Assembly: GCF_000003815.2 (NCBI RefSeq)
Contig: NC_049979.1
Location: forward strand, 7,034,729-7,098,728
Direction: 5' to 3'
Source of the DNA: Branchiostoma floridae
Lineage: Eukaryota; Chordata; Leptocardii; Amphioxiformes; Branchiostomatidae
DNA length: 64,000 nt
Shown: positions 44,239-51,761 of the stretch, one piece after another
Numbering within the stretch: position 1 is the first letter of the stretch
How the letters are laid out: the number at the start of each line of letters is the position of its first letter
Made by a program: the position numbers and the translations under genes
Notes under the pieces: generated by a model
What the model saw: the letters and a program-made list of their open reading frames with translations, nothing else
Told to the model about the DNA's origin: nothing
Database searches by the model: none

Positions 44239-44636
44239 ATATATTTCCCACTGGGAAATTAACAGTGAAAAGGCAAAAAATGGAGGTCCAGGCTGAAGTA
44301 CAAATAATACAGCTATGGGGGCCAATGACCTCAATCTAATATCATGGAAGCCAGTTTCCAATTAGTTACAATGTCACAGTTATTCTGCCCTGTCATCAGG
44401 CAACAAGGCCCTAATACATGAAATCAGGTGGTATAATTGAAATGTATTGACAGTTGCTTACACCATTTTCTTTAATGAAATACCATCTATTTTACATACA
44501 GGATGATATCTTGTGTTAAAAGAGAATTGCAGCCAGAGAATATTTTGTGAGGAGGGATTTAAGTGTAGAGAAGGAAGTGAGCTGCAAATAGAGGCCACAG
44601 ATGTAAAACTATCAGGCAAACTTCCAGCCATCCTTC

Positions 44637-47600
44637 TCATCCCCTTGCCAATGTCAAGAACTCTTCCCTTGTCTTGGGATCTTCTCGGAACACTCCCAGC
44701 ATGCAGCTGGTGACAGTCTTGCTGTTGAGTTTCTGTACTCCTCTCATCACCATGCACATGTGCCTGTAGAGTCCAGAAATCATGCAGGTTAGGACAACAT
44801 GTAGAGATATCATAATGAGAAGAAGCTCACGTCTTAAACCTGCTTAGGAATATAGGGATTCTATTTGAAATGTAAACAAAGAAAAGTACAGTGACTGTGA
44901 TTTTTTACATGTCGTAAATTAGAGCTAACACACACACTCACACTCACATTTTGTGACTCTAAGGCCACATCTAACTAATTTGTTGGTTCATAAACTTTCA
45001 AAAATAAAAACAATATGCTTAACTGGAAAAACATCAGGAAGACAAAGCCTATGGACCAGATATATGCCTTGGTGCACTCAGGTTTATGGGTTGGACATGG
45101 TCATATTCAAGTTTTACTCCCTAGCTGCCTGTTACATTTAACGATTTATGATGTCCGCTTGCTATATTTTCACTTAAAAAATCCGTGAATCAAACAAATT
45201 GAATTGGTGTGGCCTAAAGGTTGCAGGTGGAGCTTCTGCACATTTTGGAGGAAGATGTAGAGCTTGTCAGCAGCATATCTGCTCTGTCTGGGTGAGGAGG
45301 TCAGCTGTCACACAACAAGCCTCCAAGGTATGACCTCTGGCCTGGCATGTCAACATAGGCACATCTCTGTGGTGATGCAGTGCATTTCAAACATCCCCAC
45401 CAGAGAACACATCCAGGCAGAATGCTAATATCACATAGGGGGAAAATACTACTTGTGCACTCTTCTCTTCTAGTCTAGATATTGGGAGACAGTAGGGGCA
45501 TCTTCTCTGGATAGTTTTAAAGAACACTTGCAGAAAGATGTGCAAAAGCTAGGTGTGACAGGTTGTTCAGTGTAATGTAGCCAGATGCTGCTGCGCAGCG
45601 TGCCTGTGAAGCTGGTGTGTTACACTGAAGGGCGGTTATACCGGCTATATAGATACAGATGCAGACATGATGATGTCAAATCTGGGAACTTACGTTGCCT
45701 CACACACAACTGCCACTCCGGCAGGCTGGATGGCCTCACTCAGGGCCAGGGCTATCTGCTTCGTCAGCCTCTCCTGAACTGTGAAGTACAGGAAGAACGG
45801 GTGCTTCATTGTACAGTCAACACTGAAAATTGTCAATGTGTACAACACTGGTGATGTTCAATGCCAAAATCACACCAATGCAAAAAAATTTTCTTTGACA
45901 TCTGCCATTCTTTAATCTATATCTTTTCATGAGGTTTCATCTTTTCATTAAATCATCTAAAAGCATTGTTTTGTACTTGTCGCAACCTGAATAAAAATAA
46001 AGTCAAAGAGAAGCATGTTTCATTCATAAGGCCATGTTGATTTGATTATATGGATGACATCCTCTGGGAACTCCAGAACTGATGCGAGCGAGCGGATAAA
46101 AAAAAAAGTTTGGCCCAAAAAAAAGTTGACTTCAATATGAAATCTAAGTGGTCAGGAAGGTTGAACATAGGACTAAACACACATTTTTGAGTATAGCAAA
46201 TTATCAAGTTTCCACAGACAATCAGGTTCAGGTCCGGATCTGGAAATGATCCTCTGGACCTGAACGGAACCTGTACCTAAATTTTCTGTACTAGTACCTA
46301 CCCCTACCAACAATAAATTTTTTTTCACATCTTATTCTTTGACTTTAGATTTATTTTGGCATTCTATGGCATTAGTTATCTGTTTTTTGATACTTTTTTT
46401 CAAATTTACGGCATGTATGTGCTCATTTTACAGCTGCTTTGCACAATTTACTGTGTGGTCAAAAACTTTTTTTTTTTTGGAAATGGCCGAAAATTGGTGC
46501 GAGCTCGGATGTCATCCATATAATCAAATCAACATGGCCTAAGCTATAGATACAAACATGTTCAAAGCAGCTTACCTTGTAACCTTCTACTGTACATCTC
46601 TACTATTCTGAAAGGAAAAAACAAAACAGAAATGATTATTTTTTTCATAAGTGCCATCCATCCCATGGATATATGAGCGCTTTTCCTTATCAGCAGCACG
46701 AATCAATACCAATAAATTCAAGGGTCAAAATGTATGTATGTGTGCACCTCACCCATAACTGTGTTTTTGGTGAATTTTTAAAAACAGATTGATGTGCTTA
46801 GAAACAATATCATAATTGTTTTAAGTCTGATTTATGCTCACTCTCACATTGAGCTGTTTATTTGGGTAATATTTCATCTATACAAGGATGTTTTGATAAA
46901 GAGACTTTCAAATTATCTTTACTGAATTAAATGTAGTTTAAAAATCTATGATTTTCCAAGTCTCAGGCCTACCTGGCTATTTTACTCAGTCCAAGCACCT
47001 TTTTGTTTGGCAGATATCCCACAGAAACCTGCAAGACAATGAAATTTTGGTGAAATATACACAAATGGTTCTTTATACAGTCTAAGTACACATTAACATC
47101 TGTTGGCTGATGTACCCTACTTCAAAACCTATTCATCACCATGGATCGTACTGAAAGACGGACCACAAACTCTCCCCGGCATGACAACAGAAAGAATTGT
47201 TGTGTGCTTAGTTTTTCATAAGTACCCAGAAACTCATAAGATTCTAATTGCTGGTTGGCTATCGAGAAATTGTAACATGTGTAGACGTCACCGTCAAGCC
47301 CATCTATACTAGTTGTAAAACCTGCTGGATGTCCAGACAAACTTCTACTTCATGTATTGGTGCCGACCACATCCTCCTAACGCCCGGTCCCCAACGGCAT
47401 TACCTTATGGGGCCCTGCTATCCCATGCCCTATCAGTGGCTATTATGATTGTCGCCACAAACAAGCTGTCGACCAATCAGAGAATAGGCCTTTCTTGGGC
47501 TTGTTGTTGTCGCAAGCTGTCTCGCAAAGGCCGCTGGGAAGCTATCAGCCAATCATGTTACGTATTACCATGGCTTTGTTTGCTCACCATGCCGACGCCC

Positions 47601-50600
47601 GATCCCCAACGGCTGACTGCCCATATAAGGGCAAGCTCATTAATATTCATAAGCAAGGCACCCCTAATAACCGAATACTGTGGCTGAGTTGTCAGGGGTG
47701 ATATCATAGGCTTTGCCGTGATTGTCAACCCTGAGTGTGAGGGTGGCCGACCAATGATACAACCACAAAGCCTAACAGGTGTTCCAATACCAGCACTCTG
47801 GTACACAGACCTAATGACATAGTTTCCAGCCACTTTATATAGCACAATGCTGTCAAAACGTAAAAGGGGAAGGCCAATGTATTTCTAAACCATAAAGTCT
47901 CATGTTTTGTTGTCCATTAGGTAAGTACACATTACCATCTGACATTGCCTCCTTCAAATTCACCTAACTACCGGTACAAAAGCTGCCTTTCCAAGAATTT
48001 CCTGTGCTTCAATAATCTTAACACAACAGGGCATTGGTTGCACTTAGTTCTCGCTGGTAAGACTACTAACACGGCCTGATCTACTGGGACCAAATGGTGC
48101 TCACATAATGAGAACAACTCAATATCTCGCACTATCACCATCTCATCAGTGTCCTCATCAAATATTGCATCAGACACTACATCTGAAAATCAACACAGGA
48201 AGCAGTTTACAAACAAGCAACAAAGCAAAACAGCAGCTAAACAGCCTTTTTCTGTGATGCTTCACTGTCGTTGTTCTTCCTTTGATAAGAACAGGCAGTG
48301 TGACCAAAATGTGGCAACAATTAAGACTAACCCACATTTCAGCTCAAAACAGTTTGTTAAATGTCAGGGTCTCAAATAGCACTGGTTAACAGTTAATTTT
48401 TTATGCCTGTTGATAAGTTCTATTATTCAGGCTCACTTTCACATTCTTAGTAGAATAAAGTAAAATTTACGTAAATCCAGTAATTTGAAAAGACAAGTAA
48501 AGCACCAACAGAAGAGGCTGTTCAGGAATCTGCGAGTGTTGTTATCATATTTTACAAAGTACCTTTCCAATGAATGGCACCAAATGATGTTCACACATGG
48601 AAAACATCTCTATGTCCCTCACTATCACCATTTCATCTGTGTCTTCATCGAACACTGCATCATTCAGAATTCCTGCAAGACACAGATGGCATCAAACATA
48701 TTCAAAGTTAAAGATACATTTTCAGGACATACTGTACTTTATAGTAGATCTTGTGTCTGTCGCTATACACAATACCTCCCATTAGTTTTCCCTCTCTTTC
48801 AATAAAAGGATACCTACGCCCTCCTTATGCAATTTTATGGCTGTCATAAACAAATTGCCTGTAAAAACACCCCTCTTTTCAGAATCAGTTACAATTACCT
48901 GTGCATCAGGTTGCACAATTTTTTCTCTGAATCAAGACCAATTTTGTCACAGGATGAAATTATTCGTCTGCACACTCCCTTCAAGTTTTGTGATGCATAA
49001 TATCAATCAGTTCCAAGTGCAAACTTTTGGCTTTGCTCATAAACAGTGGAAATTGTTGTAAAACAAAAGGTCACTGAAATAATCCTCCAAGTTTCATGGA
49101 TGATCAGAAAAAAACTGAGGGTTTCTGATATGATGGTCAGCTGTTCAGTTGCCAGAAATAATCACGAACCCATTGGTGAAAGCAAGTGGTTTTCAAGGAG
49201 CATATATGCATGCCACAAGTGAGGCCCTGATAGAACCAAATCCCTCCTTCCTCCGCTCTCCGTCCGGTTTAAGGTGTGGGGAGAATGCCGGGGCCCCTTT
49301 GCTTCCCCTCATGCCGTCCTCTGATTTCACCTGTTACCAGACTTCTGAGACCCTAACCTTCTCCAATACTCACATCTTACTCTTCAACCCCATTTCTTCC
49401 CCTCGCCATCCTTTACCCCACTTCTGTCGCTGTGCTACTCTCCCCCCTCGCCTCTCGCCGGGTTTTTCGTTGATCGTTTCAGCGTATGGGAAAAAACACT
49501 AGAAAAACTTTATTCTGTGTGACGCTACTTTATCGGGTTACACTTTTTGGCCCTTAGGAGGCTGGTCGCCTGTTGCAATTGAGACATCAACGGTCATTCC
49601 GGCTACCGTGTGGCGTGTATCTGCGGTTTGGCGGGAAATAGCTGCCTCGGTCGGGCCTGCCGCCCCACGGGGCAGAGGGTGGCAGGGGCGGATATGGTGG
49701 GGGACGCCATCTGCGGGGCTTGCCTGGACTGATGGGTCAGTATAACCTTGCCCCTAACTACGCGCAAAGGAAGTCGGGATAGTACATATCACCATCAGGC
49801 CGGCCAGTGACACTCAGATGACCAAGGAGCCTGATAAAAGCCCCTATATAACCTTCTTGGATAGACAAAGGACAGTTTTGTTTTAAATGAGCCTCACAGG
49901 ACCTCGAAGATGATGATGATCACCTTTGAAAACTCTACTCTACTCTACTCTACTTGATATCAAAAGGAGTATGAAGAAATTATATAACGTTATATAAGCT
50001 GGTGTGTTACGCCGAAATTATATAACGTTATATAAGCTGGTGTGTTACGCCGAAGGGCGGTTATACCGGCTATATAGATACAGATACAGACATGTGAGAC
50101 ATCCACGGGGGCTGGAAGTCAGTCGCTGAGAAAAAATCCAACTGTTTACCAAGGCCAAGGAGATAAAAGCTCCTTGGTTTACCAGAGTACTCGTGACTAA
50201 ACTTCTGAGAGGCCACGTGTAAAGAATGCATAAATCTGTGTCTAACCTTGGAGATCCTCCTGGTAGCCCTTGGTGAAGAACATGAGCGCCTTGGCCGCTC
50301 TGCTGGGCGTTTTCAGCAGCCCTTGTCGGGCCGGTTCTTCCCCCACGCTGCTGAGAATGGTGTGGTAGGCCGCCTCCATATCAGGGAGGGCTCGGTTCAT
50401 CTCGTCCACGGACCGTGTTCGCTCCACGATGTCGATGTCTCGTGACGACTGGACTCTGGTAAGCGGCGGTCTCCCCCTGCGTGCCCGCCCCCCATCCTCG
50501 GACTCCTCGGCGCTGTCGTCCTTGCCAAGAGGTTTTCTGCCAGGATCGGTGTGCGCCCTGACGCGGCTTTTCAGCGAGGCGACGTCGTCGAAGAACGCCT

Positions 50601-50637
50601 CGTCTGATTCGGGGGTTGGTCCGTTGACGATTGACAT
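44637..50637 (-). CDS. GCH1: GTP cyclohydrolase 1
   Basis: Six coding exons: 50637-50247, 48672-48563, 47028-46973, 46607-46576, 45778-45694 and 44763-44637. They encode 266 residues (human about 250). The enzyme converts GTP to dihydroneopterin triphosphate, the first and limiting step to tetrahydrobiopterin, as a cytosolic homodecamer with zinc. A variable N-terminal region with RRGRPP and acidic stretches is followed by the conserved core: [43 protein letters not shown] with zinc-ligand Cys and the catalytic His of [40 protein letters not shown]; then [20 protein letters not shown] with the second zinc Cys, ending [10 protein letters not shown]. An extra copy of exon 2 lies at 48085-48182. 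A perfect TGACGTCA (CRE) lies 120 bp upstream of the ATG. Head to head with FANCL. Confidence 0.97.
44961..45216. mobile_element. AAGGCCACA-family TIR element
   Basis: AAGGCCACATCTAACTAATT is roughly mirrored by AATTGAATTGGTGTGGCCT. It lies in the last intron of GCH1. Confidence 0.6.
45455..45680 (+). mobile_element. 5'-truncated LINE 3' end, inside GCH1
   Basis: A plus-strand frame reads [20 protein letters not shown] and stops, which resembles the extreme C-terminus of non-LTR retrotransposon polyproteins. It is followed by about 100 bp ending in an AGATACAGATGCAGACATG microsatellite-like tail. The tail segment AGCTGGTGTGTTAC..TATATAGATACAG recurs at 50031-50095. The fragment ends roughly 15 bp from the splice donor of GCH1 exon 5 and is antisense to the gene. 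Confidence 0.55.
46028..46542. mobile_element. AAGGCCATG-family TIR element, 515 bp
   Basis: AAGGCCATGTTGATTTGATT is mirrored by AATCAAATCAACATGGCCT, and the arms extend inward through TATGGATGACATCC / GGATGTCATCCATA. Intronic in GCH1, between exons 4 and 5. Confidence 0.85.
48085..48182 (-). pseudogene. Duplicated GCH1 active-site exon, 12 nt shorter
   Basis: This copy reads [20 protein letters not shown] then [10 protein letters not shown], against [20 protein letters not shown] then [14 protein letters not shown] in the main exon at 48563-48672. The acceptor (TTTTCAG) is intact with the same entry phase. A usable donor (CCA|GTAGAT) ends the copy in the same phase but four codons early, dropping FIGK. 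CEHH is kept and the changes are conservative, many at third positions, so it was recently or is still under protein-level selection. It could be an alternative exon spliced instead of exon 2, or a copy beginning to decay. Confidence 0.75.
49829..50095. repeat. Cluster of short repeats in GCH1 intron 1
   Basis: Includes a CCAAGGAGC..CTTCTTGG hairpin (49829-49863), a GAT microsatellite (49910-49919), a (CTACT)n run (49933-49953), two direct copies of a 37-bp unit containing TTATATAACGTTATATAAGC (49978-50052), and a LINE-tail-like end with AGATACAGATACAGACATG (50075-50093). Another hairpin, CCAAGGAG..CTCCTTGG, is at 50147-50184. Confidence 0.75.
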
Positions 50638-50756
50638 ATTCAAATGTCTGTGGGAAACGTTTTGTAGTACCAGAAGGAGGACAGCAGCGAGAGATTGTTG
50701 TTGTCTTCAGCAGTCAGGTCACCTTTTAACTGCGTTTAGTAACCTTTGACCAGGCT

Positions 50757-50764
50757 TGACGTCA
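50757..50764. promoter_or_regulatory. Candidate CRE (TGACGTCA) upstream of GCH1
   Basis: A perfect palindromic cAMP-response element 120 bp before the GCH1 start codon, in the GCH1-FANCL divergent spacer. Mammalian GCH1 promoters are known to use a proximal CRE with a CCAAT box. The same octamer also appears elsewhere in this window, including non-promoter sites, so it could be chance. Confidence 0.4.
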
Positions 50765-51761
50765 CGAGCCACGCCTACAAAGTAAAGTCCATTTTGGATG
50801 TGTAACGTTTATCATAACAATTTATAGTTTTAACCACAAGACAGCAATTAAACATTTATAAAATGTTATGAACTGTAATAAAATATTCATTGTTTGCAAA
50901 TGAATGTAGTACTGGAGTATTCAAAATTGTAATATTTTGTATCAATAATGATGAGAGGGACCGATGAGAGTACCCCTGAAAGGTTGGTTGAGTCCACTAT
51001 TCGTGGCGCGAAAAAGCGTGCAAGGGCAGAGGATGTCAACATGAAAGGAACTCATTGACGTGCGACGATCACAGTGATTCAGATCGCGCAATTATCTGGT
51101 ACGGTGTAATTTCTACTTCCCACGATGTTCTGAAAGCCTCCTGTGGGATTCGAGGTTGTGGTTTTCACGTCAGAAGAACGGACGTCAGAAAACGGCGTGC
51201 GTGCCGCTGGCCATCTGCTGGCACTTATGATTGACTTTGATTAGGGGAAAATCGCTCTAGCAGCGCAGTCTAGGATAGATGCAACACTTGAGGTATATAA
51301 CCGATATAACGGTAGACCTGGAAATGGTACCGTGGTGGAAGGGATGCGTTTCAAGGATCAATGACGTACTATTTCCCAGGCAGAATGGGTATTGCAGCCA
51401 CACAGGTCACACAGTTGTAACTTGATATAACTTACATAACGTTAACGTTATAACTTTATTTGTGCACTGCAGTTTGATACACTTGGACAAAATTCAACCT
51501 AAATCTAAACCAGTATTTAAAGATCATCTAGATGTTTAGAGTGCTAAACTTGTGTGTGTTGCTAATGCAAATAAGTATGTAATTGCCTCATCTAAACAAC
51601 TTTGCAGGTATTTCTTTTATGGCATTGCTATTTAATAGACTATAAGCTCTTTTATGCTTTTGAATACACATCTGCAGCAACAGAGAGAGGAGTAACTTTC
51701 CTGTTTACATATGAGGGGCCTTCACCTTTGACATATTACCCACAATTCCTGTCGCTACAAA

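Follow-up and report, generated by a model that had tools for sequence, protein, structure and literature searches.

The genome of the lancelet Branchiostoma floridae carries two GCH1 genes, one in the window (the whole 64-kb stretch of DNA analyzed here) and the other on a second contig, C5, and a different copy of a duplicated exon 2, which encodes the zinc/catalytic motif CEHH, is broken in each of them. We consider it probable that an old pair of mutually exclusive exons was followed by gene duplication and then by reciprocal exon loss, by which one alternatively spliced gene turned into two. The ancestral GCH1 gene would have undergone a tandem duplication of exon 2, and both copies, termed 2a and 2b, would have been retained as alternatives, with one or the other included in the transcript. 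Later, a 6-7 kb segment containing the whole gene would have been copied to another chromosome-size contig. A deletion of 486 bp would have taken the end of 2b and its donor from the window gene, which should make the 2a enzyme only, while the C5 gene would have lost the acceptor of 2a to a deletion of 9 bp, with a transposon now sitting at that position, and should make the 2b enzyme only. An ancestral gene with both exons intact is a reconstruction from the two extant genes, and splicing of the pair in that ancestor would have been mutually exclusive.

The window corresponds to C1:7034729-7098728, C1 being the contig to which it belongs, and its GCH1 gene lies on the minus strand. The features of the gene are as follows (window positions; scores are for the profile PF01227).

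44604..50845, minus strand: extent of the homology between the two GCH1 genes, collinear with C5:8617173-8624211.
50247..50637, minus strand: coding part of exon 1, from the ATG to the donor AAG/GTTAGA (391 nt; end phase 1; open frame scoring 31.1 bits).
48563..48672, minus strand: exon 2a, intact, with the zinc/catalytic CEHH, FIGK at its end and the donor AAG/GTACTT (110 nt; 45.4 bits).
48500..48562, minus strand: stretch of 63 nt just 3' of the 2a donor, identical in both paralogues (C5:8619463-8619525).
48085..48182, minus strand: exon 2b, damaged, whose acceptor is intact but whose donor has been deleted along with the 12 final coding nt, which encode FMGK in C5 (98 nt; 37.7 bits).
48084..48085, minus strand: deletion junction in 2b, at which 486 bp of the paralogue (C5:8619896-8620381) are absent.
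46973..47028, minus strand: exon 3 (56 nt; start phase 0; no difference from the C5 gene).
46576..46607, minus strand: exon 4 (32 nt; likewise without a difference from the C5 gene, whose copy was found with this very string of 32 nt).
45694..45778, minus strand: exon 5 (85 nt).
44637..44763, minus strand: exon 6 including the stop codon (127 nt).

The sequence-only reading had recognized two homologous exons, and both were recovered in our analysis at the places it gave, on the minus strand (48672-48563 and 48182-48085). As it had described, the intron separating 2a from 2b is 380 nt long, the two exons share the same phase and CEHH, the acceptor of 2b is intact, and 2b lacks the codons of FIGK (98 nt against 110 nt in 2a). 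Within the window, the two exons are alike at 74 of 99 nt and at 26 of 33 residues, and their differences are distributed as 7, 2, and 16 over codon positions 1, 2, and 3 (16 of 25 at the third position). The homology of 2a and 2b is not a matter of chance, given this likeness and the scores of both exons above the PF01227 cut-off. Human GCH1 has a single exon 2, which is also 110 nt long.

Either exon alone, 2a or 2b, links exon 1 (phase 1) to exon 3 (phase 0) with the frame open, in agreement with the earlier description. Since the intact forms of 2a and 2b are each 110 nt and lead from phase 1 to phase 0, exactly one of them must be included. When 2a and 2b are joined, the reading frame shifts to an immediate stop (...HLVPFIGKM and then the stop codon), so the expectation that inclusion of both would simply duplicate the segment had to be abandoned. 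When both are skipped, the frame also shifts, and a stop occurs 14 codons past the codon at the exon 1/3 junction. Thus, the frame itself penalizes anything but the inclusion of one exon.

The second GCH1 gene was found by a PF01227 profile search of the same genome (513 Mb, 431 contigs), in which all 12 of the 12 candidates were scored. The search yielded 11 matches at two loci, the window and C5, with two exon 2 matches at each locus. Ten of the 11 matches were above the cut-off, corresponding to exons 1, 2a, 2b, 5, and 6 of the window gene and their C5 counterparts, and the eleventh, exon 3 of the C5 gene, was at the edge (26.8 bits, or 27.3 bits with its neighbours). The coding exons of the C5 gene span positions 8617374 to 8624178. 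We compared 60 kb of C5 with the 64-kb window (E up to 1e-10), and beyond the GCH1 block (27 kb before and 26 kb after it in C5), matches to the window were scattered, out of order, and repeat-like. The alignment indicates that the C5 locus is a segmental duplication of the gene together with ~200 bp of upstream DNA.

Several other features of the two loci are worth recording. In each of the two genes, a cAMP-response-element-like site, TGACGTCA, precedes the ATG by ~120 bp (window 50764-50757 and C5:8617250-8617257), and the mammalian GCH1 promoter has such a site as well. Intron 1 of the window gene contains two tandem copies of a 38-bp unit, TTCGGCGTAACACACCAGCTTATATAACGTTATATAAT (50054-49979), for which no exact match on that strand was found in 20 kb of C5 surrounding the GCH1 locus there. 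A repeat at 950-1694 of the window recurs with 84% likeness in the C5 gene, within its last intron (C5:8622675-8623420). Elsewhere in the window, open frames matching BTB and kelch domains on the minus strand (23635-21775) probably belong to one kelch-like gene, and an open frame at 19776-20216 matches the family of calcium-activated potassium channel beta subunits (28.4 bits).

Outside exon 2, the gene pair showed a dN of 0.015 and a dS of 0.113 (230 codons), with 8 changes over 528 nonsynonymous sites and 17 changes over 162 synonymous sites (Fisher P 1.8e-6). Both genes stayed constrained after the gene duplication. The noncoding divergence between them was 179 of 1688 sites (10.6%) over seven stretches chosen from blastn blocks, and this value is likely low because of the regions omitted from the count, namely everything unalignable, the beginning of intron 1, the sequence immediately preceding exon 6, and the blocks of 70-88% identity in introns 1 and 5 (49806-49930, 48677-48752, 45012-45440, and 44887-45010). 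The intron between 2a and 2b was less diverged than the other noncoding stretches (24/334 versus 155/1354, P 0.022).

These values bear on the possibility that the C5 locus represents a misplaced haplotype or a segregating duplicate instead of a fixed paralogue, which we regard as unlikely. The dS of 0.113 is not far above the average synonymous rate given for lancelet polymorphism (0.070-0.075, in an excerpt of PMC4284660), and lancelet pangenomes have been called highly dynamic (in an excerpt of PMC12373286). On the other hand, the noncoding divergence of 10.6% exceeds the heterozygosity of lancelets, itself high (3.2-4.2%, in an excerpt of PMC12862219), the collinear homology between the 60 kb of C5 and the window ends at both ends of the gene, and the two loci are on large contigs (29.6 Mb for C5 and 35.3 Mb for C1).

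In the C5 gene, 2b is intact (C5:8619798-8619907, 110 nt), ends in TTCATGGGCAAG (FMGK), and is followed by the donor AAG/GTAGGG (U1 -9.7). The match of window 2b to this exon ends just before those 12 nt and resumes 486 bp further on. As 2a ends in FIGK, the long form of 2b is ancestral, and the window thus lost 486 bp, the loss of four codons from 2b being one end of this deletion. The sequence-only reading had held that window 2b keeps a donor. The GT in question (CCA/GTAGAT) is indeed in the right phase, but it is former intron sequence moved there by the deletion and pairs with U1 at -1.9 kcal/mol, while the other five donors of the gene range from -5.6 to -10.7. Among 2500 random GTs of the window, 50.7% pair with U1 at least as strongly. 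We therefore rejected a functional 2b donor in the window, as the strength of this GT is that of the median random GT.

Two alternatives concern the present use of window 2b. The first supposes that alternative splicing of 2a and 2b continues in the window gene and that the 2b subunit without FIGK would be inactive or dominant-negative in the oligomer. The acceptor of 2b is intact, CCA/GT is in the right phase, the frame of the predicted form without FIGK is open (262 residues), and few changes have accumulated in 2b since the gene duplication. Nevertheless, we consider this very improbable on account of the weak GT, the origin of the four-codon loss in a 486-bp deletion, and the four lost residues themselves, to which each of the five solved chains shown aligns without a gap (1is7 with FVGR, 6z80, 7ala, and 1fb1 with FVGK, and 37xd with FFGK). 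In the second alternative, window 2b would now be a poison exon that lowers GCH1 output. Of the GTs listed within 416 nt of the 2b acceptor, the one at 47963 (TAG/GTGAAT, U1 -6.8) is the strongest, and splicing to it from the intact acceptor yields a 219-nt exon with a shifted frame and an in-frame stop inside. We regard the poison exon as improbable, albeit slightly less so than continued alternative splicing, since the arrangement shows no sign of conservation, the deletion being absent from C5.

The lesion in the C5 gene affects the other exon. C5 2a lacks 9 bp, GCAGGAATT, with the acceptor AG among them, and a 794-bp terminal-inverted-repeat transposon is found at this site between TCT copies (C5:8618563-8619356). 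The ends of the element are ~32 bp (CACGATAG...), and its target duplications are 3 bp. Elsewhere in the genome, at least 39 further long matches to it were found, with 40 of the 241 candidates scored and the element itself counted among those 40. Both ends were found in four of the nine other loci scanned, and these four copies are 967-990 bp with a target duplication of 3 bp as well. As the target duplication is 3 bp in the other copies, the loss of 9 bp seems to have been an event distinct from the insertion. C5 2a may retain a cryptic acceptor that is in frame. We also considered the end of C5 2b as a recent copy of 2a by gene conversion and rejected it, as 2 of the 12 nt distinguish TTCATGGGCAAG from TTCATTGGAAAG and the introns begin differently.

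Altogether, the two paralogues have a different exon broken in each, and both are otherwise under selection. Adjacent, homologous, same-phase exons with an open frame are represented by C1 2a and C5 2b (110 nt each), but the two are not intact within one gene (C1 lacks the end of 2b and C5 lacks the acceptor of 2a), so that no present-day gene can be classed as a member of the genes with mutually exclusive exons. With 2b intact in C5 and 2a intact in the window, the present choice is most likely between two genes and not between two exons of the window gene. Mutually exclusive use, as the sequence-only reading had suggested, thus stands as far as the anatomy and the pattern of purifying selection are concerned and fails for the window gene of today, in which 2b is without four codons and its donor. 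The lesions were observed in the one assembly examined and may be polymorphic.

Since the gene duplication, the damaged exons have received 1 and 2 nonsynonymous changes, in comparison with 4.2 and 4.5 expected if they were neutral (P 0.08 and 0.18, respectively; joint 0.028). The damaged exons have therefore decayed little, suggesting that either the losses are young, probably well after the gene duplication, or some constraint remains. The two changes in C5 2a each replace an aspartate that is retained in C1 2a, both copies of 2b, 1is7, and 6z80. At the first of the two sites, the solved chain 37xd has E, as does C5 2a.

The predicted proteins of the C1 gene with 2a and of the C5 gene with 2b are both complete with 266 residues each. 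They differ at 15 residues, 8 of which are in exon 2 (from 2a to 2b: GILN to EVVS, V to I, M to L twice, and I to M), and one of the two M to L changes adjoins the cysteine of CEHH. In the comparison with solved structures, 15 chains were matched and alignments were shown for five of them. The full spliced 2b protein matched 1is7 with an E value of 1.9e-96 and aligned without gaps against the GCH1 chains 1is7 and 6z80, which we take to be rat and human GTP cyclohydrolase I, respectively. The products of intact 2a and intact 2b would represent this same enzyme, both being alignable to it gap-free. As the solved GCH1 chain 37xd has the same 10-residue stretch as 2b, an active 2b enzyme seems plausible. 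In our reading, both genes would be expressed and their proteins would differ in function.

The relative order of the two duplications can be deduced from the divergence of the exons. The same exon differs little between the loci (2 of 98 nt for 2b and 2 of 102 nt for 2a), while intact 2a and intact 2b are alike at only 85 of 111 nt (76.6%) and at 29 of 37 residues. Thus, the exon duplication came first and the gene duplication later. A Ka/Ks-type comparison of the intact copies, which the earlier reading had proposed as a check, gave a saturated pS of 0.744 against a pN of 0.112, and the 37 codons contain 12 synonymous and 8 nonsynonymous codon changes without any stop. Intact 2a and 2b are considered old, as their synonymous sites are saturated. 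Lancelet orthologues separated by ~120 Myr are 79.5% alike in coding DNA on average (in an excerpt of PMC4284660). The exon pair would be of similar depth or older, as a rough estimate from one short exon.

We simulated the divergence of the exon pair with an omega of 0.05 on the 2a branch, neutral 2b, and equal branches, the target being no more than 8 nonsynonymous and no fewer than 12 synonymous codon changes out of 37. At most 9 of 20,000 neutral runs were as extreme as the observed pattern (at the best of 7 branch lengths, and again at the best of 7 finer lengths), and 17 of 20,000 were so at one length when the simulation was started from the 2b sequence. With an omega of 0.1 for 2b, 11,261 of 20,000 runs reached the observed pattern. 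An earlier simulation of 33 codons gave 0 of 300 runs at each of four branch lengths. When neutral 2b was given a shorter branch, the pattern was reached in 654, 3880, 4453, and 3069 of 20,000 runs at 2a/2b ratios of 5, 10, 15, and 20, respectively; at ratios of 7.5 and 5 with a 2b branch longer than in those runs, 336 and 421 of 20,000 runs did so. The rejection of neutral 2b holds under equal branches and lapses once the branch of 2b is made shorter than that of 2a by a factor of 5 to 20. We retain the result under equal branches because exons 380 nt apart share time and should mutate alike. Assuming equal branches, both 2a and 2b would have been under purifying selection for long.

The damage to window 2b, together with the restriction of the selection test to equal or similar branch lengths, would fit a simpler account in which 2b is a dead copy that was never used. 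We find this account extremely improbable. The exon pair has more synonymous than nonsynonymous codon changes, saturated synonymous sites, and no stop, C5 2b is full-length with both splice sites intact, and the observed pattern was almost never reached by the neutral runs under equal branches, whichever sequence they were started from.

If the pair was an alternatively spliced one, as we propose, traces of its regulation may be sought around the exons. The 63-nt stretch following the 2a donor is identical in both genes, while identity extends over 6-15 nt at the four other exon-to-intron starts compared. Before 2b, 25 nt are identical between the genes, and the other eight exon edges have identical runs of 3-15 nt. 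Within exon 2a, none of the 18 synonymous sites differs between the two genes. The 63-nt stretch may be a candidate splicing element or a gene-conversion tract. Its pairing with the region before 2b was predicted at -44.0 kcal/mol in C1 and -35.4 kcal/mol in C5. As many as 10 of 495 background stretches do as well as -44.0 (3 of 151 when matched for G+C), and the pairing was thus rejected as a device for exclusion, being not beyond the background and weaker in C5. With this background and with three target regions tried, the pairing stays a weak lead. A distant branch point, which is near the upstream donor, needs a long AG-free zone. The AG-free zones before 2b are 52 nt in C1 and 48 nt in C5, within introns of 380 nt and 335 nt, respectively. 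Enforcement of exclusion by a distant branch point, as described for OGDH in an excerpt of PMC7969005, was consequently not supported.

Reciprocal exon loss is a known fate. In an excerpt of PMC9741552, an exon pair after gene duplication may be kept complete in both genes, be kept complete in one gene, or be left with one exon in each gene, and the partitioning of homologous exon pairs between gene duplicates is given as an outcome of subfunctionalization. The GCH1 pair appears to represent the third fate, each gene keeping one exon. The same excerpt describes the human calcium channels CACNA1F and CACNA1S, in which, as proposed for GCH1, the ancestral exons were tandem duplicates used in a mutually exclusive way and each gene kept a different one (PMC9741552). 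The two channel genes involve three exon pairs, with one exon per pair annotated in each gene, whereas GCH1 involves a small segmental duplication and a single pair, in which an enzyme's zinc/catalytic motif is encoded, and its broken exons are still readable. In the FYN family (FYN, SRC, YES1, FGR, and FRK), paralogues each kept one ancestral homologous exon, similarly to GCH1, albeit FYN retains both exons (PMC9741552, same excerpt), unlike either GCH1 gene in the genome searched. What is new here is the GCH1 gene, the catalytic nature of the exon, and the fact that both lesions are still readable. We found no description of duplicated GCH1 exons or of a swap of the zinc/catalytic exon in the passages of open-licence papers examined, nor did GCH1 occur in the titles listed for work on exon pairs, and this absence is weak evidence, as only open-licence papers were covered. 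The mitf duplicates in fish, reportedly described by Altschmied in 2002, are said to be whole-genome duplicates that involve alternative first exons and not homologous internal exons.

GCH1 catalyzes the first, rate-limiting step in the synthesis of tetrahydrobiopterin, on which dopamine, serotonin, and nitric oxide depend. Exchanging its zinc/catalytic exon would be a means of tuning the tetrahydrobiopterin pathway. As a tentative extension, possible but doubtful at present, lancelets may have swapped this exon for a period in the order of 100 Myr, with kinetics or feedback differing by tissue, before the swap was replaced here by two genes, and the 63-nt stretch may be a remnant of the switch. 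The ancestral state with two exons should persist in other lancelets. With the lesions located to the base and the intact exons in different genes, the GCH1 pair would offer a clean test of how alternative splicing becomes separate genes.
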